In this document: positions 1,689 to 12,238 of the stretch, one piece after another
Layout of the letters: each line of letters opens with the position of its first letter
Position numbering within the stretch: the stretch's first letter is position 1
Source: an uncultured Verrucomicrobiota bacterium
GTDB taxonomy: Bacteria; Verrucomicrobiota; Kiritimatiellia; RFP12; UBA1067
Length of the DNA: 12,380 nt
NCBI GenBank assembly: GCA_946631535.1
Contig: CAMPAF010000049.1
Location: 1 to 12,380, forward strand
Direction of reading: 5' to 3'
The notes under the pieces: generated by a model
Database searches by the model: none
Seen by the model: only the letters and a program-made list of their open reading frames with translations
Told to the model about the DNA's origin: nothing
Position numbers and translations under genes: made by a program

Positions 1689-3089
1689 ATGAAAATTACA
1701 TTCTACGGCGCGGCGCAGACTGTCACGGGGTCCATGCACCTCGTGGAAACGAACGGCAAGCGTATTCTGCTCGATTGCGGGCTATACCAGGGACACCGAA
1801 AGGAAGCTTTCGAGATCAACCGGAACATTCCCTTCGATGCCACGAAGATCGACGCGGTTGTCCTTTCCCATTCGCACATCGACCACTCCGGCAACCTGCC
1901 GCAGCTCGTGCGGCACGGGTTTCGCGGGAAGGTCTATGCTCGCCCGGAGGCCGTGGACCTCTGCGGGATTCTCCTGCGCGACTCCTGCTTCCTGCAGCAG
2001 CGCGACCTGGAGTACGTCAACAAGAAGCGCCGCCAGCAGGGCAAGCATCTCTTCGAGCCGCTGTACACCGAGGAGGACATCGACACGCTCATGCCGATGA
2101 TGTCGCCGGTGCCGCTCTACGCGCGGCGCGAGATATTCCCCGGCGTGACGCTAGAGTTCAGCAACGCCGGCCACATCCTCGGAAGCGCGCTCGTGACGCT
2201 GGACGTGGGTGGCGGCGCGTACCGTCGTCATAGGCTGCTCTTCTCAGGCGACCTCGGCCAGCCAAACCAGCCGATCCTTCGCCACTACGACTACCCGCAG
2301 GACGCCGACATCCTGATGATCGAGTCCACGTACGCCGACCGCCTGCATCCTTCGGCTGACGACGTGGAAGGCCGCCTCAAGGGGTACATCGACGACATCA
2401 TCCAGCAGAAGTCCAAGCTCATCATCCCGGCATTCTCCGTCGGCCGTACGCAGCAGATCCTCTACTACCTCAACCGACTTCTTGCGGCAGGGCGCATCCG
2501 TCAGATTCCCGTCTTCATCGATTCGCCGCTCTCGCAGAAGGCTACAGGGATCTACGAAAAGGCGAAGGACTGCTACAACCCTGAGGCGCAGGACCTGCTG
2601 CAGGTGGGCGTAAATCCGCTCACGTTCCCCGGGCTGCAGTATGTCGAGACGCCGCAGCAGTCGATGTCCCTGAACGAGCTTCGCGGGCCGATGGTCATCA
2701 TCGCGGCGAGCGGCATGTGCGAAGGCGGGCGAGTGGTGCACCACTTGAAGGCCTCGGTGGGCGATCCGCGCAACATCGTGCTCATCGTCGGCTTCCAAGC
2801 GGAAGGCACGCTCGGACGGCGGCTCGTGGAACACACGGAGAAGAAGGTCAAGATTCTCGGCGAGGAGTGCGACCTGGAGGCGCGCGTCCAGACCATCAAC
2901 GCGCTCTCGGCGCATGCCGACCGCAACGGACTGATGGACTGGTTCGACGGCGTGGGCAAGAACGTGAAGCGCGCGTTCGCGGTGCATGGCGAGCCGGACC
3001 GCGTGGAGAAGATGGTGGAGCTGCTCAAGGAGCACGGCTGTCCGTCGGCCGTCGCGCCCGTGAAGGGTCAGACCTTCGTGATCGACTGA
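1689..3089 (+). CDS. Beta-CASP metallo-beta-lactamase-fold ribonuclease (CPSF73/YSH1-like family)
   Basis: A 466-residue two-metal nuclease of the MBL/beta-CASP family, probably cytoplasmic and acting on RNA. All expected motifs are present in order: HSHIDH at residues 61-66 (motif 2, Zn ligands), GHILGSA with His162 (motif 3), SGDLG with Asp188 (motif 4), then beta-CASP motifs ESTYADR near 212-218, PAFSVGRTQQ, a SGMCEGGR segment and LSAHAD, with a terminal VHGE. The length matches the family's usual 450-470 residues, with no KH or other added domains. Bacterial members are annotated as MBL-fold RNA hydrolases or exonucleases. The exact substrate is unknown and no specific symbol is justified. 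The start at 1689 fits the family N-terminus (MKITFYGAAQTVTGS) and the promoter 6 nt upstream. The next gene starts 26 nt later and is probably co-transcribed. Confidence 0.95.
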   Translation: MKITFYGAAQTVTGSMHLVETNGKRILLDCGLYQGHRKEAFEINRNIPFDATKIDAVVLSHSHIDHSGNLPQLVRHGFRGKVYARPEAVDLCGILLRDSCFLQQRDLEYVNKKRRQQGKHLFEPLYTEEDIDTLMPMMSPVPLYARREIFPGVTLEFSNAGHILGSALVTLDVGGGAYRRHRLLFSGDLGQPNQPILRHYDYPQDADILMIESTYADRLHPSADDVEGRLKGYIDDIIQQKSKLIIPAFSVGRTQQILYYLNRLLAAGRIRQIPVFIDSPLSQKATGIYEKAKDCYNPEAQDLLQVGVNPLTFPGLQYVETPQQSMSLNELRGPMVIIAASGMCEGGRVVHHLKASVGDPRNIVLIVGFQAEGTLGRRLVEHTEKKVKILGEECDLEARVQTINALSAHADRNGLMDWFDGVGKNVKRAFAVHGEPDRVEKMVELLKEHGCPSAVAPVKGQTFVID

Positions 3090-3100
3090 TGCGAAAAGGA

Positions 3101-3106
3101 AGCAAG
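3101..3106 (+). promoter_or_regulatory. Ribosome binding site deciding the start of the MurU-AmgK fusion
   Basis: An AAGGAA-type Shine-Dalgarno sequence sits about 6-9 nt before the ATG at 3116. An in-frame ATG at 3089 overlaps the upstream TGA, but has no purine-rich site before it and would add nine residues (MRKGSKEYS) not expected before a Rossmann-like nucleotidyltransferase strand. The start at 3116 is therefore preferred. Confidence 0.6.
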
Positions 3107-3115
3107 GAATACTCG

Positions 3116-4954
3116 ATGGACACTGGAAAAGGCATCAAGAAGGCGATTGTGCTGGCGGCAGGGCTGGGGACGCGCCTGCGTCCGCTCACGTTTGTGCGGC
3201 CCAAGCCGCTCCTCCCGATATGGGGCGTGCCGATGCTCGAACGCGTCGTGCGGATGCTTGAGACGTGGGGCGTCACAGAGATAGCGGTCAACGCGCACTG
3301 GCTCGCGCCGCAGGTGGCGCGCTGGGCGTCGGAGCGCAAGGGCAAGGCGTCGATCCTCGTCTCGCGCGAGGAGGAGATACTTGGGACCGGCGGAGTGCTG
3401 CGTCCGCTGGAGGGCTTCATCGGCGGCGAGCCGTTCTGGCTCGTGAACGGCGACATCGTGATCGACGGGCTGAAGCCGGAACCTATCCTCAAGGCGTTCG
3501 CGGCGTCAGGCGACTTCGCGGGCTGCTGGATTTCCGAGAACTTCGGGCCGCGCACGATCGAGGCCGACCACGATGGGCACGTCTGCAACTGGAAGAGCGA
3601 CGTTCCGGGCGACTACGGCACATACACCTACTGCGGGTGCGCGCTACTTTCTTCGGATGTGGTCAAGTATCTGCCCGAGACGAAGTTCTGCTCGATCGTG
3701 CAGGCGTACGAGAAGGCGATGATGACGGACGCGCGCTTCGTGGTGGGGACAGACCCCGAAGGGGCGTATTGGGCGGATGCCGGAACGCTCGAGAGCTATC
3801 TGGAGGCACATGCCGCGCTTGATCCTGACAGGTTCGAAGACAACCCGAACGTCATCTTCGAGGGCGTCAAGCTGCTGGACACCGCCGATCTCGCTGGGTG
3901 CGTGGTGACGGGCGGAATGGTTGGCGGCACTTTCGAGCAAACCGCCCTCGTGGGCGTGGACCAGATAGGCAACGCGCCGCTTGCGGCCTTGGCGGAGGCG
4001 CTCGGCTGGAAGCCCGAGGACACCGCGGCTGTGTTCCTGGGGGCGCGCGGGAGCGACCGTTCGTTCTGGCGGTTCGTCCATGGCGACGACCGTGCGATCG
4101 CCATACAGTACGACGACGCGGCGCGGCCCGAGAACGCGCGCTACGCCTCTCATGCGCGGCTGCTCGATGCGTCCGGCGTGCCGGTGCCGCGCGTGCTGGC
4201 GGACCTTCCCGAGAAGAAGGTGCTGGCGCTCGAGGACTGCAACGGCGATTCGCTTGAGACGCGCGCTGCCAAGAAGGGCGTCGACCTGGTGAAGCTCTAC
4301 GCGCCGGTTGTGAAGGCGCTCCGCACGATGCACGAGCAGGGTACGGAGCGCGCGCTCGACGTGCCGCTGGAACCTTCCTTCGGCCCCGACCTCTACGCCT
4401 GGGAACGCGACCTCTTCGAGAAGTTCTGCGTGAAGGAACGCTACGGCTACGAGAAGCTGCCCGACGACGTGCGCGCGGACCTCGAGGCCGTGGCTGCGGA
4501 ACTCGCGCGCCAGCGGCCAGTGCTGGTGCACCGCGACTTCCAGAGTTCGAACGTGCTGTACCGTCCGGACGGTTCGTTCGCGTTCATCGACTTCCAGGGG
4601 ATGCGTCTAGGCGCGGCGGCGTACGACCTCGCCTCGCTCCTCTACGATCCGTACGTGCCGCTGGACGAGAAGGCGCGGACGGCGCTCGCGCGCCTGTATC
4701 CCGTGGACCGCCTCGCCTACGGCGCGGTGCAGCGTCTCGTGCAGGCGCTTGGCGCGTTCGGCAGGCTCGCGTCCGTCGGGCAGCCGCAGTTCGAGCGGCA
4801 CATCCCGCGCGCTCTCGGCAACCTGCTCGCGGCGGCGGACGAGGCGGACCTCGATGCGCTTGGCGGCTTCGTGGAGGACCTGATCGCCAAGGAGGAGATC
4901 CGCCTCGGCCATTTCCACCATCACCATCACGACGACGAAGAAGACGATTCGTAG
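3116..4954 (+). CDS. Bifunctional sugar-1-phosphate nucleotidyltransferase / aminosugar kinase fusion (MurU-AmgK-like)
   Basis: A 612-residue fusion. Residues about 8-235 are a nucleotidyltransferase: AIVLAAGLGTRLRPLT (10-25) is the nucleotide-binding signature, PKPLLPI follows, ILGTGGV is at 88-94, LVNGD at 109-113 (Asp113 is the likely metal ligand), and YWADAGTLESYLEA closes the domain, as in MurU. Residues about 240-275 look like a short hexapeptide/beta-helix linker. Residues about 300-560 are an APH/choline-kinase fold: HRDFQSSN at 472-479 gives catalytic Asp474 and Asn479, and IDFQ contains Asp492. The DFQ...YDLASLLYDPY stretch resembles AmgK. In Pseudomonas, AmgK phosphorylates MurNAc/GlcNAc at C1 and MurU makes the UDP-sugar, bypassing de novo synthesis. 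One chain doing both steps is inferred here. Another sugar (for example a heptose or capsule sugar) is possible. The C-terminus is an odd His/acid tail. Confidence 0.82.
   Translation: MDTGKGIKKAIVLAAGLGTRLRPLTFVRPKPLLPIWGVPMLERVVRMLETWGVTEIAVNAHWLAPQVARWASERKGKASILVSREEEILGTGGVLRPLEGFIGGEPFWLVNGDIVIDGLKPEPILKAFAASGDFAGCWISENFGPRTIEADHDGHVCNWKSDVPGDYGTYTYCGCALLSSDVVKYLPETKFCSIVQAYEKAMMTDARFVVGTDPEGAYWADAGTLESYLEAHAALDPDRFEDNPNVIFEGVKLLDTADLAGCVVTGGMVGGTFEQTALVGVDQIGNAPLAALAEALGWKPEDTAAVFLGARGSDRSFWRFVHGDDRAIAIQYDDAARPENARYASHARLLDASGVPVPRVLADLPEKKVLALEDCNGDSLETRAAKKGVDLVKLYAPVVKALRTMHEQGTERALDVPLEPSFGPDLYAWERDLFEKFCVKERYGYEKLPDDVRADLEAVAAELARQRPVLVHRDFQSSNVLYRPDGSFAFIDFQGMRLGAAAYDLASLLYDPYVPLDEKARTALARLYPVDRLAYGAVQRLVQALGAFGRLASVGQPQFERHIPRALGNLLAAADEADLDALGGFVEDLIAKEEIRLGHFHHHHHDDEEDDS
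4910..4951 (+). other. Natural His-rich then acidic C-terminal tail (HFHHHHHDDEEDDS)
   Basis: The last 14 codons of the fusion gene (residues 599-612) encode six His in seven positions, followed by six consecutive Asp/Glu and a Ser. CAC and CAT alternate, so this is not a simple nucleotide slippage product. The composition suggests divalent metal binding (Ni, Zn, Co), but no function follows from sequence alone. Confidence 0.85.
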
Positions 4955-4992: not shown

Positions 4993-6849
4993 ATGAAAAA
5001 CGCCACCCTGAAGAAGGTCCGAATCACCGACACGACCCTGCGTGACGCCCACCAGTCCCTGTGGGCCACGCGCATGCGGACAGACGACATCCTCAAGATC
5101 GCCGAGGCGATCGACAACGCCGGCTACTATTCGCTAGAATGCTGGGGCGGCGCCACGTTCGACGTGTGCATGCGCTTCCTGCGCGAGAATCCGTGGGAAC
5201 GCCTGCGCCAGATCAAGGCCGTCTGCAAGAAGACGCCGCTCCAGATGCTTCTGCGCGGGCAGAACATCCTCGGCTACAAGCACTATCCGGACGACATCGT
5301 CGAGCGCTTCGTGGCCCTCGCCTGCGAGAACGGCATGGACATCTTCCGCGTGTTCGACGCGCTCAACGACCCCCGCAACCTGGAGAAGGCCATCGCGAGC
5401 GTGAAGAAGTACGGCGGCCACGCGCAGGGCACGATCTCCTACACCACCTCGCCAGTCCACACCGTGGCGGCCTACGTGAAGCTCGCCAAGGAGCAGGAGG
5501 CGATGGGCATCGACTCGCTCGCCATCAAGGACATGGCGGGCATCCTCACGCCCGGCGCGGCCCGCGAGCTCGTGGGCGCTCTCGTGAAGGCGCTCCCCGA
5601 GATACCGATCCAGGTGCATTCGCACATGACGAGCGGCATGGCGGCGGCCATGTATCTTGCCGCCGTGGAGGCGGGCGCGGGCTGCGTGGACTGCGCGATC
5701 TCCACGATGTCCAGCTTCAGCTCGCAGCCGCCGTGCGAGTCGATGGTGACGATCCTCGAGAGCGAGGGCTACGACACTGGCCTCGACCAGAAGAAGCTCG
5801 CCGAGATCAACGCCTACTTCCGCGAGCTGAAGGCGAAGCGCCAGCCCGCGTCCACGGCGAAGGTGGAGCCGGTGGACGCCGGCGTGCTCGTCCACGCGAT
5901 CCCCGGCGGCATGATCTCCAACCTCCGCAGCCAGCTCGCCCAGCAGGGCGCGCTGGACCGTCTGCCCGAGGTGCTGGAGGAGCTGCCGCGCACGCGAGCT
6001 GACATGGGCTATCCTCCGCTCGTCACGCCCACCAGCCAGATCGTCGGCGTGCAGAGCGTCCTCAACGTCCTCGGCGGCAAGCGCTACGGCATGGTGACTG
6101 ACGAGACGAAGCACTACGCCGCCGGCTACTACGGCCGCACGCCCGCGCCGATCGAAAAGAAGCTGCAGAAGAAGCTCGTCGGCGACCTCAAGCCCATCAC
6201 ATGCCGTCCGGCGGACCTCCTAAAGCCTGGCCTCGCGGCTGCGGCGAAGGAGATCCCGGCCAAGTTCATCAAGGCAGAGGAGGACATTCTAAGCTACTGC
6301 CTCTTCCCGGAAGTGGCGCTCGGCTACTTCAAGTGGCGCGCGCAGCCTGCCGACGCGAAGGATCCGATTCCTGCCGACCTGGAGATGAAAGGTGAAGAGG
6401 GAAAGGTGAAAGGTGAGGTTGCCGCTGTCGATCCAGAGACTGCCAAGTTCGCGCAGATCGGCAAGGCATTCGCTGCGCTCATGGCCGCCTGCGGAGGCGC
6501 GAACCTTAAGGACTCTAACGGCCTTAAGGACCTTAAAGACTCTATGGACCTTAAGGACGTTAAAGACACTAAGGACGTTAAGGACGTTAAAGACACTAAG
6601 GGCTCTAAGGCCGCCGAAGGCACGCCCGTCCTGGCGCCCTTGAACGGCACGTTCTACCGGAGCGCGGGTCCCGGCAAGCCGGAGATGGCTAAGGATGGCG
6701 ATTCCGTGAAGAGCGGCGCGCCGGTCTGCATCGTCGAGGCCATGAAGCTGTTCAATCCGATCAAGGCCACGGCCAACGGCAAGATCGCCTTCCTCGTCGA
6801 GCACGGCAAGCCGGTGACCAAGGGCCAGACCCTGGCCGTCATCGCCTAA
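4993..6849 (+). CDS. Biotin-dependent carboxyltransferase (pyruvate carboxylase subunit B / oxaloacetate decarboxylase alpha type) with fused biotinyl domain
   Basis: A 618-residue protein. Residues about 8-270 are a DRE-TIM/HMGL-like barrel: ITDTTLRDAHQS (11-22, metal ligand Asp13), LRGQN, FRVFDALND and the carbamylated-lysine motif AIKDMAGIL (Lys179), plus the HSHMTSG metal site (His209, His211). The PycB/OadA C-terminal domain follows to about 460. A repeat-built linker spans about 465-545, and the biotinyl domain about 548-618 has VEAMKL with biotin lysine 585. It transfers a carboxyl group between biotin and pyruvate/oxaloacetate. Direction and partner cannot be read from the window, because neither a biotin carboxylase nor OadB/OadG genes are present. 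The biotinyl domain looks like AccB (GTFYRS, a short SAGPGKP thumb, CIVEAMK) rather than a usual OadA domain. An in-frame TTG at 4957 was rejected because it is the -35 box and the family N-terminus begins at 4993. Confidence 0.93.
   Translation: MKNATLKKVRITDTTLRDAHQSLWATRMRTDDILKIAEAIDNAGYYSLECWGGATFDVCMRFLRENPWERLRQIKAVCKKTPLQMLLRGQNILGYKHYPDDIVERFVALACENGMDIFRVFDALNDPRNLEKAIASVKKYGGHAQGTISYTTSPVHTVAAYVKLAKEQEAMGIDSLAIKDMAGILTPGAARELVGALVKALPEIPIQVHSHMTSGMAAAMYLAAVEAGAGCVDCAISTMSSFSSQPPCESMVTILESEGYDTGLDQKKLAEINAYFRELKAKRQPASTAKVEPVDAGVLVHAIPGGMISNLRSQLAQQGALDRLPEVLEELPRTRADMGYPPLVTPTSQIVGVQSVLNVLGGKRYGMVTDETKHYAAGYYGRTPAPIEKKLQKKLVGDLKPITCRPADLLKPGLAAAAKEIPAKFIKAEEDILSYCLFPEVALGYFKWRAQPADAKDPIPADLEMKGEEGKVKGEVAAVDPETAKFAQIGKAFAALMAACGGANLKDSNGLKDLKDSMDLKDVKDTKDVKDVKDTKGSKAAEGTPVLAPLNGTFYRSAGPGKPEMAKDGDSVKSGAPVCIVEAMKLFNPIKATANGKIAFLVEHGKPVTKGQTLAVIA
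6388..6416 (+). repeat. Three copies of AAAGGTGA in the interdomain linker
   Basis: AAAGGTGA occurs at 6388-6395, 6402-6409 and 6409-6416. It is translated as EMKGEEGKVKGEV within the linker between carboxyltransferase and biotinyl domains. The A-rich codons contrast with the GC-rich flanks. Confidence 0.7.
6505..6612 (+). repeat. Twelve-unit 9-nt tandem repeat encoding (L/S/V/T)-K-D triplets
   Basis: Twelve consecutive 9-nt units, consensus NTT/NCT-AAR-GAC, read in frame as LKD, SNG, LKD, LKD, SMD, LKD, VKD, TKD, VKD, VKD, TKG, SKA. They form a charged, probably flexible linker before the biotinyl domain (residues 505-540). Codons CTT, GTT, TCT and ACT dominate here, whereas the rest of the gene prefers codons ending in C or G. 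This points to a distinct origin for the segment. Confidence 0.9.
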
Positions 6850-7595
6850 TGGGATTGTTCTGGAACATACTGCTCTGGGGCGCCATAATCTGGATGTGGG
6901 CGCATCAGGGCAAGGAGAAGATGCGCCGCGAGCAGGAGGCTCGTCGCCGCAATGCCGGATATCTGCGAGATGTCATCTTGGAGGGATTCGGCAAGATGCT
7001 CGGGTTCATCTCCAAGGCGGACGGGCACATCAGCGAGCCAGAGGTCAACGTCGCCAGCAAATGCCTGCGTTCGCTTGGGCTTTTGGAGGACGAATACCAG
7101 GTATGCGTGCGAGCGTTCAACAGCGTGCGCGCCTATTCGCTTTCCGCGTTCAACGCATACGCCTCGCAATTCGCGTCCATCGTGACAGGCGAGGCCAGGA
7201 CCCTCGTCTATGAGATGCTGTGGATGGTAGCCGCCGCAGATGGCGTCCTGGACGCCAAGGAAAGCGAGCTGCTCGGCCATGCCGTCAGTTCGCTGAACAT
7301 AGACCCGACATTGTACCTCTACTTCAAAAGGATGTATTTCGGGGTAGGCGGAGGAGGTGCTGGCGGATTCCGCAACGAGGAGTCCGAACTTGACAAGGCG
7401 TACTCTCGGTTGGGGTGCTCGCCGTCGGACACGGATGATGCAGTCCGGTCCGCATATCGGAAACTCGCCATGCGTTATCACCCCGACAGGCTAAAGGCGG
7501 AAGGCGTGCCGGAAGGCATGATTGCGCAGGCCACCCGATCCATGGCGGAAATCAACGCAGCATGGGAGGCCGTGAGAAAGGAACGGCGTCTTTAG
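6849..7595 (+). CDS. Membrane-anchored TerB-DnaJ protein (DjlA-like cochaperone)
   Basis: A 248-residue protein. Residues 3-18 are a hydrophobic segment (FWNILLWGAIIWMW) followed by a basic stretch KEKMRREQEARRR, as expected of an N-terminal membrane anchor with the rest in the cytoplasm. Residues about 45-150 are a TerB-like helical domain with two acidic motifs, KADGHISEPE (56-65) and AADGVLDAKE (129-138). A Gly-rich hinge (165-173) leads to a C-terminal J domain with HPD at 211-213. This order is that of DjlA, which in Enterobacteria stimulates DnaK and influences envelope stress. The ATG overlaps the previous TAA by one base (TAATG), and no clear Shine-Dalgarno sequence is seen, so translational coupling is likely. 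The usual DjlA length is about 250-270 residues. The name is withheld because similarity is architectural. Confidence 0.88.
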   Translation: MGLFWNILLWGAIIWMWAHQGKEKMRREQEARRRNAGYLRDVILEGFGKMLGFISKADGHISEPEVNVASKCLRSLGLLEDEYQVCVRAFNSVRAYSLSAFNAYASQFASIVTGEARTLVYEMLWMVAAADGVLDAKESELLGHAVSSLNIDPTLYLYFKRMYFGVGGGGAGGFRNEESELDKAYSRLGCSPSDTDDAVRSAYRKLAMRYHPDRLKAEGVPEGMIAQATRSMAEINAAWEAVRKERRL

Positions 7596-7597
7596 CA

Positions 7598-7627
7598 TTG
7601 ACCCCGCAGGGTGTGGTGTGGTATACT
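7598..7627 (+). promoter_or_regulatory. Sigma70-type promoter of the leucine operon
   Basis: TTGACC (-35, 7598-7603), an 18-nt spacer and TATACT (-10, 7622-7627), starting 3 nt after the previous stop codon. The predicted start is near 7634, giving a leader of about 200 nt before leuA. The -10 sits in an imperfect dyad (GTGGTATACTAC, 7618-7629). Confidence 0.75.
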
Positions 7628-7650
7628 ACGCCGCGTCACAGGAAAAAACG

Positions 7651-7725
7651 ATGAACACGAACCTTATGCTTCTGGCGCTTCTTGGCCTTCTCCTTCTTGG
7701 GAGCGGGACGGGTGCGGTTTGCTAG
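7651..7725 (+). CDS. Leucine-rich leader peptide (leuL-like)
   Basis: A 24-codon ORF starting at ATG 7651 with an AGGAA-type ribosome site about 6 nt upstream, ending at TAG 7723-7725. It begins MNTNLMLLALL and ends SGTGAVC. Nine of the 24 residues are Leu (codons 5, 7, 8, 10, 11, 13-16, spanning 7663-7698). Seven of the nine are CTT, which is a minority Leu codon in leuA itself. It lies between the operon promoter and leuA and is followed by a strong hairpin. In enterobacteria, leuL controls leuABCD by ribosome stalling at Leu codons. The same role is inferred here; the peptide sequence itself is not recognisably related to leuL. A small membrane peptide is the alternative reading. Confidence 0.72.
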   Translation: MNTNLMLLALLGLLLLGSGTGAVC

Positions 7726-7762
7726 AAGCAGAGGAAGAGCGTTCTGGAAAGCAAACGGCCCC
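7711..7762 (+). promoter_or_regulatory. Candidate antiterminator hairpin of the leu leader
   Basis: GTTTGCT (7717-7723, the end of the leader ORF) pairs perfectly with AGCAAAC (7750-7756). With single mismatches the pairing extends to 7711-7723 against 7750-7762 (11 of 13 positions). The right arm shares 7753-7762 with the left arm of the terminator hairpin, so the two cannot form together. Confidence 0.62.
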
Positions 7763-7785
7763 GCCCCAAAGGCGAGGCCGTTTCT
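7753..7785 (+). terminator. Attenuator (terminator-like) hairpin in the leu leader
   Basis: AAACGGCC (7753-7760) pairs perfectly with GGCCGTTT (7776-7783). After one C/A mismatch, CGCC (7762-7765) pairs with GGCG (7771-7774), closing a CCAAA loop. The stem is strong. The T-run is short (TTTCT, partly inside the stem), so termination efficiency is uncertain and may need Rho or pausing. Confidence 0.6.
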
Positions 7786-7833
7786 GCATCTCGGGACGGC
7801 GACGCCAGACAGGCAGGCAACAAGGAACAGGAA

Positions 7834-9354
7834 ATGAAAGACAACAGGATAAGGTTCTTCGACACGACGCTGCGAGACGGCGAGCAGGCCCCGGGCTACT
7901 CCATGTCGCACGACGAGAAGACGCGCATGGCGCTCCAGCTCGAGGCGCTCGGCGTAGACGTGATAGAGGCCGGGTTCGCCGTGGCCTCGCCAGGCGACTT
8001 CGAGAGCGTGCGCCAGATCGCGCGCGCCGTGAAGGGCTGCACCGTGGCATCGCTCGCCCGCGCGCTCGAGAAGGACATCGACGCGGCGGCGGAGGCCGTG
8101 AGGGAGGCGGCGCACCCGCGCGTGCACACGTTCCTCGCCACGAGCGACCTGCACCTGAAGAGCAAGCTCCACATGTCGCGGCGGGACGCGCTGGATAGGG
8201 TGAGGCGCATGGTCGCGTACGCGCGGAGGAAGTGCGCGGACGTGGAGTTCTCCGCAGAGGACGCTTCGCGCACGGACGTCGACTTCCTGTGCAGGGTGGT
8301 GGAGACGGCGATCGCCGCCGGCGCGTCGGTGGTGAACCTGCCGGACACGGTCGGATACGCCGCGCCGGAGGAGTTCCACGACTTCATCCGCTCCGTCATG
8401 ACGCGCGTCCCGAACATGGACAAGGCGATACTTTCGGTACACTGCCACGATGACCTGGGGCTCGCAGTCGCCAACACGCTTGCGGGCATACGCGCCGGGG
8501 CGCGCCAGGTGGAATGCACGATCGGCGGCATCGGCGAGCGTGCTGGCAACGCCGCGCTGGAGGAGATCGTGATGGGTCTGCGCACCAGGCACGACCACTA
8601 CGGCGACATGGAGTACGGCATCCACACGGAGGAGATCGCCCGCTCGGCCCAGCTCCTCTCGCGCATCACAGGCGTCAAGATCGCGCCGAACAAGGCGATC
8701 GTCGGCGCGAACGCCTTCGCCCACGAGAGCGGCATCCACCAGCACGGCGTAATGGCCGACGCGCGCACATACGAGATCATGACGCCGGAGTCCGTCGGCG
8801 TGAAGAAGACGGAGCTGGTGCTTGGCAAGCATTCCGGGCAGCACGCCTTCGCGGAGCGCCTGAAGACCCTCGGCTACGAGCTGGAAGCGGAGCAGGTGGC
8901 GGACCTCTTCGCGGATTTCAAGTCGCTGGCCGACCGCAAGAAGACGATCCTGGACCGCGACCTCGTCGCGCTCGTGGAGGCGAAGGCGGGGACTCGCGTA
9001 CGCCCGGAGCGCGAATGGCGGCTCGACACGTTCGTCGTCAACAGCGGCAACCACATGAGCGCCACCGCGCAGGTCACGCTTGAAAGGAACGGCAAGAAGC
9101 GCCAGGAGGCCGCGCTCGGCTCGGGGCCGATCTACGCCGCGTTCCGCGCCGTGGAGATGATCATACGGCACAAGTTCACGCTGGATGACTACCGCATCGA
9201 GGCCGTCACGGAGCGGCGCGACGCTCTCGGCGAAGTGTTCGTGAAGATATCGGACAAGCGAGGCTCGTACCGCGGGCGCGGCGTCTCCACCGACATCATC
9301 AAGGGCAGCATCCTCGCGCTGCTGAACGCCGTCAACAGGATGCTGAACGCCTAA
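7834..9354 (+). CDS. leuA: 2-isopropylmalate synthase
   Basis: Condenses acetyl-CoA with 2-ketoisovalerate, the first committed step of leucine synthesis, in the cytoplasm. At 506 residues it matches the usual bacterial LeuA length. The catalytic barrel begins at once: [14 protein letters not shown] (9-22, with Arg14 and Asp15), HCHDDLG with His203 and His205 as metal ligands, [14 protein letters not shown], and the HESGIHQHG motif that helps separate LeuA from related synthases. The [10 protein letters not shown] stretch and the C-terminal regulatory domain (about 390-506) are intact, so feedback inhibition by leucine is expected. The start at 7834 has AAGGA (7822-7826) at 7-nt spacing. It follows the leader attenuator and begins a leuA-leuC-leuD-leuB operon. 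leuC starts 30 nt later. Confidence 0.97.
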
Positions 9355-9384: not shown

Positions 9385-10653
9385 ATGGGCATGACGATGA
9401 CACAGAAGATCCTCGCGGTGCACGTGGCCGACGGAGCGACAGTACGCGCGGGCGAGCTGGTGATGGCGAAGCTCGACCTGGTGCTGGCGAACGACATCAC
9501 GGCGCCGGTCGCCATCGGCGAGTTCCCGAAGTTTGGGCGCGAGCGAGTGTTCGACCGCACGAAGGTCGCGCTGGTGCCTGACCACTTCGCGCCTAACAAG
9601 GACATCAAGGCGGCCGCGCAGTGCGCGTGCATGAGGGCGTTCGCCCGAGCGCAGGACATAGAGAACTACTTCGAGGTGGGCCACGACTGCGGCGTGGAGC
9701 ATGCGCTGCTGCCGGAGAAGGGGCTCGTGACGGCGGGCGACTGCGTGATCGGCGCCGATTCGCACACATGCACGTACGGCGCGCTTGGCGCGTTCTCCAC
9801 TGGCGTCGGCTCTACGGACGCTGCGGCGGGGATGGCGACAGGCGAGGCCTGGTTCCGGGTGCCGTCCGCGATCAAGGTCGTGCTGCGCAACGCTCCGCGC
9901 GGCTGGGTCTGCGGCAAGGATGTCGTGCTGCGGCTGATCGGCATGATCGGAGTGGACGGCGCGCGATACCAGTCGCTTGAGTTCACGGGTGACGGCGTCG
10001 CCGCACTCGGCATGGACGACCGCTTCACCATCGCCAACATGGCCATAGAGGCCGGCGCGAAGAACGGCATCTTCCCTGTGGATGACATCTGCAGGGCGTA
10101 CCTTTCGGAACATGGAGCGAAGCCGCCGCGAGCATTTGCGGCCGACGCTGATGCCGAATACGAGCGCGAGGTGGAGATAGACCTGTCGGGGCTGAAGCCC
10201 GTGGTGGCGTTCCCGCACCTGCCTTCCAACGTGCGCGACGTGGAAGAGGCAGGCGACGTGCCGATCGATCAGGTGGTGATAGGCTCATGCACGAACGGCA
10301 GGATATCCGACATGCGCGTCGCCGCCGAGATCATGCGCGGCAGGAAGGTGGCGCCGGGCGTGCGGTGCATCGTCATCCCCGCTACGCAGCGCGTCTGGCT
10401 GCAGGCGATGGAGGAGGGGCTGCTCAAGACGTTCGCGGAGGCGGGGTGCGTCGTGTCCACGCCGACGTGCGGACCGTGCCTGGGCGGACACATGGGCATC
10501 CTCGCGAAGGGCGAGAGGTGCGTGGCAACCACGAACCGGAACTTCGTCGGCCGCATGGGCCATGTGGAGTCCGAAGTGTATCTCGCCTCGCCGGCGGTCG
10601 CCGCCGCCAGCGCGTTGGCAGGACGTATCGCAATGCCGGAGGAAATGAAATGA
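9385..10653 (+). CDS. leuC: 3-isopropylmalate dehydratase large subunit
   Basis: Aconitase-family [4Fe-4S] subunit that, with LeuD, isomerises 2-isopropylmalate to 3-isopropylmalate. Cluster ligands are visible: Cys302 in GSCTNGR, and Cys362 and Cys365 in [11 protein letters not shown]. Other family motifs are [30 protein letters not shown] and a C-terminal [10 protein letters not shown]. At 422 residues it belongs to the short (archaeal/clostridial-type) LeuC group, not the roughly 465-residue proteobacterial type. The start at 9385 has AGGAG about 9 nt upstream; later ATGs at 9391 and 9397 have poorer spacing. Its TGA overlaps the leuD ATG (ATGA), so the two subunits are probably translationally coupled. 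Confidence 0.96.
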
Positions 10654-11159
10654 AGACCAGGGGAACAGCTTTCAGGTACGGCGACAACGTCGACACCGAC
10701 GTGATCATTCCGGCGCGCTACCTAAACACGCCGGACGCCAACGAGCTGGCGACGCACTGCATGGAGGACATCGACAAGCAGTTCGCGCGAACCGTCAGGA
10801 GCGGCGACATCATCGTCGCGGGACGCAACTTCGGCTGCGGCTCCTCCCGCGAGCACGCGCCGCTCGCCATCAAGGCGTGCGGAGTGGGTTGCGTGGTTGC
10901 GGCCTCGTTCGCGCGCATATTCTACCGCAACGCGCTCAACATCGGTCTGCCGATCCTGGAATGCCCCGCAGCCGCCGAGGCGGTGGAGGCGGGGCATGCG
11001 GTGACTGTGGACTTCGTGGCGGGAGAGATAACGGACGAGACGACGGGACAACGCTTCGCCGTGGAGCCGTTTCCTCCGTTCATGCGCGAACTCGTGGCGG
11101 CCGGCGGCCTCGCGAACTATCTCCGCAATCGACAGGGCAGCGGGGAGGGCCAGCCATGA
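10650..11159 (+). CDS. leuD: 3-isopropylmalate dehydratase small subunit
   Basis: Small swivelling subunit of isopropylmalate isomerase, pairing with LeuC. It has 169 residues, matching the short LeuD type that partners a roughly 420-residue LeuC. Motifs visible are [16 protein letters not shown] (10-25), then [14 protein letters not shown] (58-71), which holds the substrate loop, and [16 protein letters not shown]. The start at 10650 overlaps the leuC stop by 4 nt and has GGAGG (10638-10642) at 7-nt spacing. Its own stop overlaps the leuB ATG in the same way. Confidence 0.96.
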
Positions 11160-12238
11160 ACAAGACGGTAACGGTATTGGCCGGCGACGGCATCGGGCCG
11201 GAGACGACTGGAGAGGCGGTGAAGGTCCTCGCGGCGGTGGCGGAGAGGTTCGGGCACAGTTTCGAGACGCGCGAATGCCTGGTGGGCGGTGCGGCGATAG
11301 ACGCCGTGGGCGCGGCGTTGCCGCCGGAGACGCTGGCGGCTTGCCGGGCGGCGGACGCCGTGCTGCTGGGTGCGGTGGGCGGACCGAAGTGGGATTCGCT
11401 GCCGGGCGCACTTCGCCCTGAGCGTGCCGCACTCCTGCCTCTTCGCGCCGAGCTAGGCGTGTTCTGCAACATGCGTCCCGCGAAGGCATGGGGCGCGCTT
11501 GTGGACGCAAGCCCGCTGCGGCCGGAAGCAGTTGCCGGAGGCTTCGACATCCTTGTGGTGCGGGAACTGACCGGCGGCATATATTTCGGTGCGCACGAGC
11601 GGTCGGAGGACGGGCGTTCCGCGCGCGACGTTATGGAGTATTCCGTCGAGGAGATAGAGCGGGTGGCGCGAATGGCGTTCTCCGCGGCGCGCAGCAGGCG
11701 CGGCAGCGTAACGAGCGTCGACAAGGCGAACGTGCTAGAGACGTCGCGCCTGTGGCGAGAGACGGTCATGCGCGTCCGCGAGGAGAGGTTCGCGGACGTC
11801 TCGCTTGACCACATGTACGTGGACAACGCCGCCATGCAGCTCGTGCGCGATCCAAGGCGCTTCGACGTGCTGCTCACCGAGAACATGTTCGGCGACATCC
11901 TGTCGGACGAGGCGTCGCAGGTCGTGGGCTCGATCGGCATGTTGCCGTCTGCGTCGCTGCGAGAGGACGGGTTCGGGCTATACGAGCCTGTCCACGGATC
12001 GGCGCCGGACATCGCCGGGCGCGACATCGCCAATCCGCTGGCCACGATACTGTCTGCGGCGATGATGCTCAGGCATTCATTCGGACTGGAGCGGGAAGCG
12101 GCGGCAGTCGAGAGCGCGGTGGAGACCGTTCTCGCGAGCGGCTTTAGAACTGCAGACATCGCCAAGCCGGGCGAGGCGTCCATCGGCACGCGCGCCATGG
12201 GTGACGCAGTGCTTTCCGTGCTGCTGGATCAGGTGTAG
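11156..12238 (+). CDS. leuB: 3-isopropylmalate dehydrogenase
   Basis: NAD-dependent oxidative decarboxylation of 3-isopropylmalate to 2-ketoisocaproate, giving leucine after transamination. It has 360 residues, the typical length. Motifs in order: LAGDGIGPE (8-16), GAVGGPKWD (72-80), the substrate-contact helix [20 protein letters not shown] (LL and Arg as in IPMDH rather than isocitrate dehydrogenase), [40 protein letters not shown] with the metal-binding aspartates, and the NAD-site HGSAPDIAG. The start at 11156 overlaps the leuD stop by 4 nt and has GGGGAGG (11142-11148) at 7-nt spacing. The last 10 nt overlap a converging gene, and no terminator is visible between them. Confidence 0.97.

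Follow-up and report, generated by a model that had tools for sequence, protein, structure and literature searches.

What controls the leucine operon of this uncultured gut bacterium, and does the short leucine-rich open reading frame (ORF) ahead of its first gene take part? In the window, by which we mean the whole stretch of 12,380 nucleotides analysed here, four genes follow one another on the forward strand: leuA, encoding 2-isopropylmalate synthase and first in the operon (7834..9354; TIGR00973, 696 bits, cut-off 598.7), leuC (9385..10653; TIGR02083, 696 bits, cut-off 610.65), leuD (10650..11159; TIGR02087, 202 bits, above cut-off; TIGR02084, 233 bits, below the cut-off of 245.85) and leuB (11156..12238; TIGR00169, 495 bits, cut-off 353.2). 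The starts of leuD and leuB were placed from frame and overlap, and the corresponding profile queries were the longer frames 10287-11156 and 10877-12235. A preliminary description had read the ORF upstream of leuA as the leader peptide of a ribosome-mediated attenuator. Our analysis points the same way: recurrence of the ORF, a terminator behind it and pairing between the ORF end and the terminator 5′ arm all make it very probable that the leader controls leuACDB by ribosome-mediated transcription attenuation, as judged from sequence comparison and RNA modelling. The principle of such attenuation is textbook knowledge and the mechanism itself is not new. The observations beneath this reading are the parts of the leader and their conservation, their matched pairings, a codon bias, an occurrence confined, for the genes tested, to those of branched-chain synthesis and a modelled switch.

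The leader ORF lies at 7651..7725 on the forward strand and comprises 24 codons plus TAG (MNTNLMLLALLGLLLLGSGTGAVC). It is short, Leu-rich and, by sequence, translatable, with a Shine-Dalgarno-like AGGA (7640..7643, forward strand) 7 nt ahead of its ATG, and it recurs in relatives as a Leu-rich ORF followed by a terminator. The nine Leu codons within 12 that had been pointed out earlier are indeed there, filling codons 5-16 in the regulatory stretch 7663..7698 (forward strand; CTT seven times, CTC and CTG once each), and the ORF has no Leu codon elsewhere. At the 8.6% Leu of six window genes, the binomial probability of at least nine Leu in 24 codons is about 1e-4, a single-ORF figure uncorrected for the number of small ORFs. 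Searched against Pfam and NCBIfam models, the peptide gave no match, a comparison of little power for a query of 24 residues.

A putative promoter, recognised by consensus, precedes the ORF. The sole promoter-like site in 7400-7900 is TTGACC-18-TATACT at 7598..7627 on the forward strand, with an extended -10 (TGG before TATACT); shuffles averaged 0.1 such sites. Its -10 box stands 23 nt from the leader ORF, and an extended -10 pattern within 60 nt before the leader ORF is found in 37 of 56 family leaders, compared with 2.45 expected from shuffles. Transcription would start from this site, just ahead of the leader ORF. Immediately upstream, 6849-7595 holds a TerB plus DnaJ domain gene (DjlA-like) that ends 2 nt ahead of the -35 box. 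In the close relative G011 (locus L006), the end of an oadA-like gene seems to stand directly before the leader in its place, so insertion or loss of the TerB/DnaJ gene may have taken place immediately next to the promoter.

The choice of Leu codons sets the leader apart from the genes around it. Window leuA uses CTG 18 times, CTC 18 times and CTT 4 times, as the preliminary description had said in general terms, and over six window genes CTT makes up 27 of 243 Leu codons, as against 7 of 9 in the leader (Fisher p 1.3e-5). The argument from less common codons holds beyond the window: in 23 family sequences (the window and 22 others), CTT accounts for 145 of 205 Leu codons in leaders and for 113 of 907 in their own leuA genes. 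Where ten leaders of one group encode the same residue, they do so with the same codon in 78% of comparisons, compared with 67% in leuA. Isoacceptor identity was considered as the cause of the CTT choice and set aside. The tRNA loci scanned in one family genome (eight of the 48 hits, 71-76 nt by coordinates, lack a locus of their own) include tRNA-Leu anticodons TAA, TAG, CAG, GAG and CAA (twice); CTT should be read by tRNA-Leu(GAG), which would also serve the commoner CTC, and because that single tRNA reads both, isoacceptor identity alone appears insufficient to account for CTT over CTC. According to the excerpted text of PMC1183508, leader codons are those with a reading rate most sensitive to supply, and the leu operon is a paradigm of rare leader codons, with CUA named for Salmonella.

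Recurrence was assessed in three sets of relatives. Among the genomes compared, the one nearest to the window shows 98% identity over 2552 bases. Two LeuA relatives with named sources, 74 and 71% identical, belong to Kiritimatiellae, from which the window too appears to come; it is through these two that we equate the class of our genome sets with Kiritimatiellae. The family set comprises 69 sequences, namely the window, 67 of 68 matching genomes and an additional copy from G011. For the class set, 80 of at least 131 other matching class genomes were hand-chosen to spread over families; the outgroup set holds 20 of 49 matching genomes from other classes of the phylum. A leader was counted when at least four Leu fell within 12 residues, with a terminator 12-55 nt after the stop, within 350 nt upstream of leuA. 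By this test a leader plus terminator precedes leuA in 56 of 69 family sequences, 44 of 80 from the rest of the class and 0 of 20 from other classes. Reversed-strand controls gave 0, 0 and 1 for the three sets, and dinucleotide shuffles 0-1 per set over five rounds. The alignment of relatives that the preliminary description had named as its check comes out in its favour: a short Leu-rich ORF persists upstream of leuA, and the peptide apart from its Leu run changes among relatives, with length and other residues varying across the class.

The signal is specific in residue and in gene. Upstream of leuA, runs of six in 12 occur for Leu in 47 of 149 sequences and for each of nine other single residues in at most 2 of 149; Ile, Leu and Val taken jointly (eight of 12) give 22 of 149, overlapping with the Leu set. 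Upstream of hisG, the leader test found nothing in 30 loci. His leaders (at least three His in 12) had been sought before hisG as candidates in their own right, and none was found in these 30 loci, available in 30 of 39 genomes, in which hisG need not be the first operon gene; the hisG loci were then used as a control.

The leader test is failed by 13 of 69 family sequences and by 36 of the 80 others from the class. Named from translations, the end of an ACT-domain-like gene lies just upstream of leuA in five leaderless family members, and the end of an ilvB- or ilvN-like gene in several other leaderless genomes. Some failures concern single sequences: G107 has a leader by eye but with few Leu, and the contig of G030 leaves 282 nt upstream. 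G006 yielded only a fragment, G049 has masked bases in its upstream stretch and G097, whose contig begins inside leuA, was left out. The automatic pick in G053 is not a leader, and this genome was excluded from the permutation, codon, folding and promoter sets; G102 and G112 lacked a terminator in the first extraction and so lie outside the pairing sets, G112 having a leader that passes the leader test. G011 carries two leuA copies (L006 and L020), 99% and 71% identical to window leuA and each with its own leader; with an estimated contamination of 6%, this genome may be a mixture. Outside the class, locus L196 (G469) shows by eye a Leu-rich ORF, MTYIKRLSLISLLSLVLRPAGG, 33 nt ahead of a strong hairpin upstream of leuA. 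This candidate fails the automatic leader test and could be a relic, a transfer or chance.

The most informative part of the leader is a hairpin that the preliminary description did not include. It spans 7753..7783 on the forward strand (AAACGGCCCCGCCCC..GGCGAGGCCGTTT; -20.0 kcal/mol), begins 27 nt after the stop codon and is followed by a weak U tail, TTTCTGCATC (7781..7790, forward strand). A terminator scan of the forward strand does not list it, since the tail TTTCTGCA has four T in eight and the scan requires five. Many relatives have stronger tails, for example TTTTTCTTTT, and an intrinsic terminator stands between their leader ORF and the first gene. Under a stricter hairpin test, which the window fails, the counts become 50 of 69 in the family, 39 of 80 in the class and 0 of 20 in other classes; the six family sequences that drop are the window, two close relatives and three others. 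In an alignment of 25 family sequences, the 11-pair terminator stem is paired in 90.1% of cells, and its covariation score was equalled by 0 of 500 shuffles. The window terminator may nevertheless be leaky, its U tail TTTCTGCATCT being poorer than those of many relatives.

A terminator becomes a switch when a competing structure can hold one of its arms, and the end of the ORF appears suited to this. The core of the antiterminator 5′ strand (7697..7722, forward strand) lies in the last ORF codons and resembles the terminator 3′ arm; that of the 3′ strand (7751..7769, forward strand) overlaps the terminator 5′ arm. Across 23 representatives, this pairing averages -26.2 kcal/mol within a leader's own sequence and -20.5 kcal/mol across genomes, with 0 of 20,000 permutations as good; a second extraction gave 0 of 20,000 for each of 21 family and 32 other class representatives. 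The pairing is also stronger than with synonymously recoded ORFs in the 23 representatives (mean z -1.2, combined p 2.7e-8), a collective effect in which the median single p is 0.09 and the natural pairing is weaker than the recoded in 4 of the 23. Between clades the three strands change together: GCGGGGC goes with GCCCCGC, CCACGGGAG with CTCCCGTGG, and CGGTGGG with CCCACCG. In the alignment of 25 family sequences, the antiterminator is paired in 76.7% of cells compared with at most 49.4% when slid (3 of 500 shuffles as good), and its covariation score in the MAFFT alignment of these sequences does not rise above shuffles (94 of 500 as good). Folding of a single sequence was dropped as a proof of structure, the whole leader reaching a z of only -1.37 against shuffles.

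A further helix can form earlier in the leader. Segment 1, in the early ORF (7652..7675, forward strand), can pair with the stop codon and the stretch after it (7723..7745, forward strand; duplex -19.1 kcal/mol), a pairing supported by permutation: over 23 representatives the helix averages -15.9 kcal/mol within own sequences and -11.6 across genomes, and 0 of 20,000 permutations were as good. It belongs to the fold of the free leader, and on paper it and the antiterminator are mutually crossing. Leaders of one family group (for example L013:887-1038) carry two further Leu codons (..RGAVLLV) after the antiterminator segment; a stall at that point would put the ribosome over the antiterminator, seemingly against the purpose of the switch.

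These parts suggest the following sequence of events. Transcription would begin just before the leader ORF. With charged tRNA-Leu plentiful, the ribosome would pass the CTT codons, reach the stop and cover the last ORF codons; as these form the antiterminator 5′ strand, that strand would be blocked, the terminator at 7753-7783 would form and transcription would stop before leuA. With leucine short, the ribosome would stall in the Leu run, opening segment 1 and leaving the last codons free to pair with the terminator 5′ arm, and RNA polymerase would continue into leuACDB. If the leader were not translated, segment 1 might pair with the stretch after the stop and the terminator would be expected to form, a step to which the modelling lends weak support. 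In the cell, the start of transcription, the leucine dependence and the size of the effect are inferred.

The ribosome was represented by a mask on the RNA, extending to 12 or 15 nt from where the A-site codon begins. In the window RNA, the terminator has an equilibrium probability of 1.00 when no ribosome is present. Under the 12-nt mask, any A-site position between codon 16 and the stop gives 0.93-0.96, and codons 6-15 give 0.33 or less; codon 5, the first Leu, gives 0.56 and codon 4, ahead of the run, 0.27. Under the 15-nt mask the change happens a codon sooner, and termination would then be possible even with the ribosome stalled on the final one or two Leu codons; for A-site codons 7-14, neither mask gives a probability above 0.33. 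As a general test, equilibrium folding of stalled states fits the window and fails in most relatives, where the terminator wins at equilibrium in every ribosome state; among 56 family leaders, the probability falls more than 0.2 below the value at the stop in 11 at the first Leu of the run and in 21 at a middle Leu. For this reason the state before the terminator 3′ arm exists was also modelled. There, with a stalled ribosome, the ORF end holds the terminator 5′ arm (above 0.5) in 54 of the 56, and the absence of antiterminator with a ribosome at the stop codon follows from the mask itself. Even with no ribosome the antiterminator forms (mean 0.54; in the window 0.66, compared with 0.81-0.87 when stalled), so that this model separates the two conditions poorly and makes segment 1 a weak protector. 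Support for a mutually exclusive antiterminator under control of ribosome position comes from permutation and modelling.

How does this leader compare with known systems? The enterobacterial leuABCD attenuator places a Leu-rich leader ORF, a terminator and an antiterminator ahead of leuA, and the window resembles it in all three and in favouring a less common Leu codon, but differs in favouring CTT, in its gene order leuACDB and in having no Rfam match. At gathering scores, neither the window nor 20 related loci matched any Rfam model, including Leu leader, the family of the enterobacterial attenuator with LeuL, and the T-box leader. Seven sub-threshold matches in the leader belong to other families, five of them on the opposite strand and none a leucine or amino-acid leader. 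The earlier suggestion of an independently derived or undescribed leader is in keeping with a peptide that has no Pfam or NCBIfam match and an RNA that has no Rfam family match. Mixed Ile/Val/Leu leaders with a terminator are familiar from proteobacterial ilv operons. Actinobacterial ilvB leaders, as excerpted from PMC1262725, have this form too and resemble those before ilvB in the order and class of the window; here, unlike in either of these groups, the RNA core CGGTGGG / CCCACCG / CGGTGGGT is common to leu and ilv leaders from several families.

Two other systems come close in part. The ilv-leu attenuator of Staphylococcus aureus, in the sections of PMC5794164 consulted, also has a short Ile/Leu-rich ORF with a conserved terminator after its stop in a branched-chain operon, and its response to Leu has been shown experimentally; it differs in being a 26-aa Ile/Leu peptide before ilvD, with the terminator 52 nt after the stop, in an unrelated phylum, and its antiterminator pairs with the terminator poly-U, whereas that of the window pairs with the terminator 5′ arm. 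The actinobacterial LEU element likewise involves candidate leader peptides with Leu codons ahead of leuA, but in the published form excerpted from PMC1262725 it is a pseudoknot whose base stem joins the Leu codons to the Shine-Dalgarno box, with classical attenuation judged unlikely, whereas the window has a separate conserved terminator and, within the ORF, an antiterminator strand that matches it.

The shared core was searched for directly, using the pattern CGGTGGG-(35-65)-CCCACCG-(3-22)-CGGTGGGTTTT and no peptide criterion. It occurs once each in 17 of 266 class genomes, and the reversed pattern in none. In 16 of the 17 genomes, leuA or ilvB is the immediate downstream neighbour: the first long ORF past the match encodes IlvB in eight (above the TIGR00118 cut-off), LeuA in six (above the TIGR00973 cut-off) and a second LeuA type in two (above the PRK03739 cut-off). 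At the remaining site, L313, a 136-residue ORF without a family comes first and leuA follows about 3 kb further on the same strand. All 17 sites allow an Ile-, Leu- or Val-rich leader ORF to be read, the frame start having been chosen for most such residues and without a control; leaders before leuA are mainly Leu-rich and those before ilvB mixed Val/Ile/Leu. Independently of the motif, an Ile/Leu/Val leader with terminator lies upstream of ilvB in 11 of 50 stretches within the order, a count without a shuffle control and with three of the 50 stretches drawn from homologues below the family cut-off. In several class families (L297-L301, L306, L310, L311), ilvB has its own Val/Ile/Leu-rich leader with the RNA core of the leu leaders. 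A tentative extension, to which we give slightly less than an even chance, is that one inherited Kiritimatiellae RNA design, with an ORF end imitating the terminator 3′ arm and in many families the core CGGTGGG / CCCACCG / CGGTGGG, controls both leu and ilv genes. In this extension, the ORF codons alone would change with the pathway, and a single attenuator lineage would have shifted its specificity between leucine alone and the branched-chain amino acids together, CTT remaining the codon that senses leucine.

Other accounts of the locus have to be weighed against attenuation. The leader might act through translation or Rho, its translation shielding the RNA from Rho or being coupled to leuA, with the hairpin secondary; the weak U tail of the window would suit this, as would the proposal of Rho for actinobacterial cys leaders without terminators (PMC1262725, as excerpted). 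Yet the 56 family leaders have their hairpins 16-34 nt past the stop, many of them with a full U tail, and their ORF ends are matched to the hairpin 5′ arm; in the window the gap between leader stop and leuA start is 108 nt. All of this makes such action quite improbable. Even less credible is a T-box or other leucine-sensing riboswitch controlling leuA beside a fortuitous ORF. The ilv-leu operon of B. subtilis is under tRNA-Leu T-box control (PMC5794164), but the lack of Rfam matches in the window and 20 related loci and an ORF that recurs far above controls leave this reading hardly any probability.

That the ORF precedes leuA by chance and its product works as a small hydrophobic membrane peptide is very improbable too, if slightly less so than a riboswitch. 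Its Leu-rich, hydrophobic core and its near constancy within one group (MNTNLLLNGLLLLALTRRGAVLLV and close variants) are what such a peptide would show. Across the class, however, it is mainly the Leu run that persists; CTT is favoured, and codons within the one group are identical more often than in leuA. The ORF ends match their own terminators, the leaders before ilvB are rich in Val/Ile/Leu instead, and the peptide has no Pfam or NCBIfam match, itself of little power at this length.

What appears to be new here is the lineage, the RNA core common to leu and ilv leaders and the CTT preference. No description of attenuation in Kiritimatiellae was found among the listed matches of the literature searched, most subscription journals lying outside that search. 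The excerpted text of PMC2965389 (2010) states that leader-peptide systems had, to its authors' knowledge, been shown only in Proteobacteria and Actinobacteria, and adds Firmicutes. PMC4833913, in the part consulted, cites a 2010 comparative survey by Lopatovskaya and colleagues, which may hold a prediction for related phyla. Roughly 100 natural variants (56 + 44) are now available for comparing Leu codons, antiterminators and terminators. They could be used to test ideas on why attenuators use particular codons and on how leaders change amino-acid specificity, and gene annotation of uncultured genomes from gut and rumen would benefit from these leaders.

Two genes elsewhere in the window are also worth recording. 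The single frame at 2717-4954 combines a nucleotidyltransferase and an APH-like kinase domain with a His/Asp/Glu-rich tail, and its product presumably resembles fused enzymes of cell-wall sugar recycling. The other, at 1689-3089, encodes an MBL-fold beta-CASP-like protein; in NCBIfam its best match, the type VII CRISPR Cas14 model, scores 397 bits, far short of the cut-off of 800.
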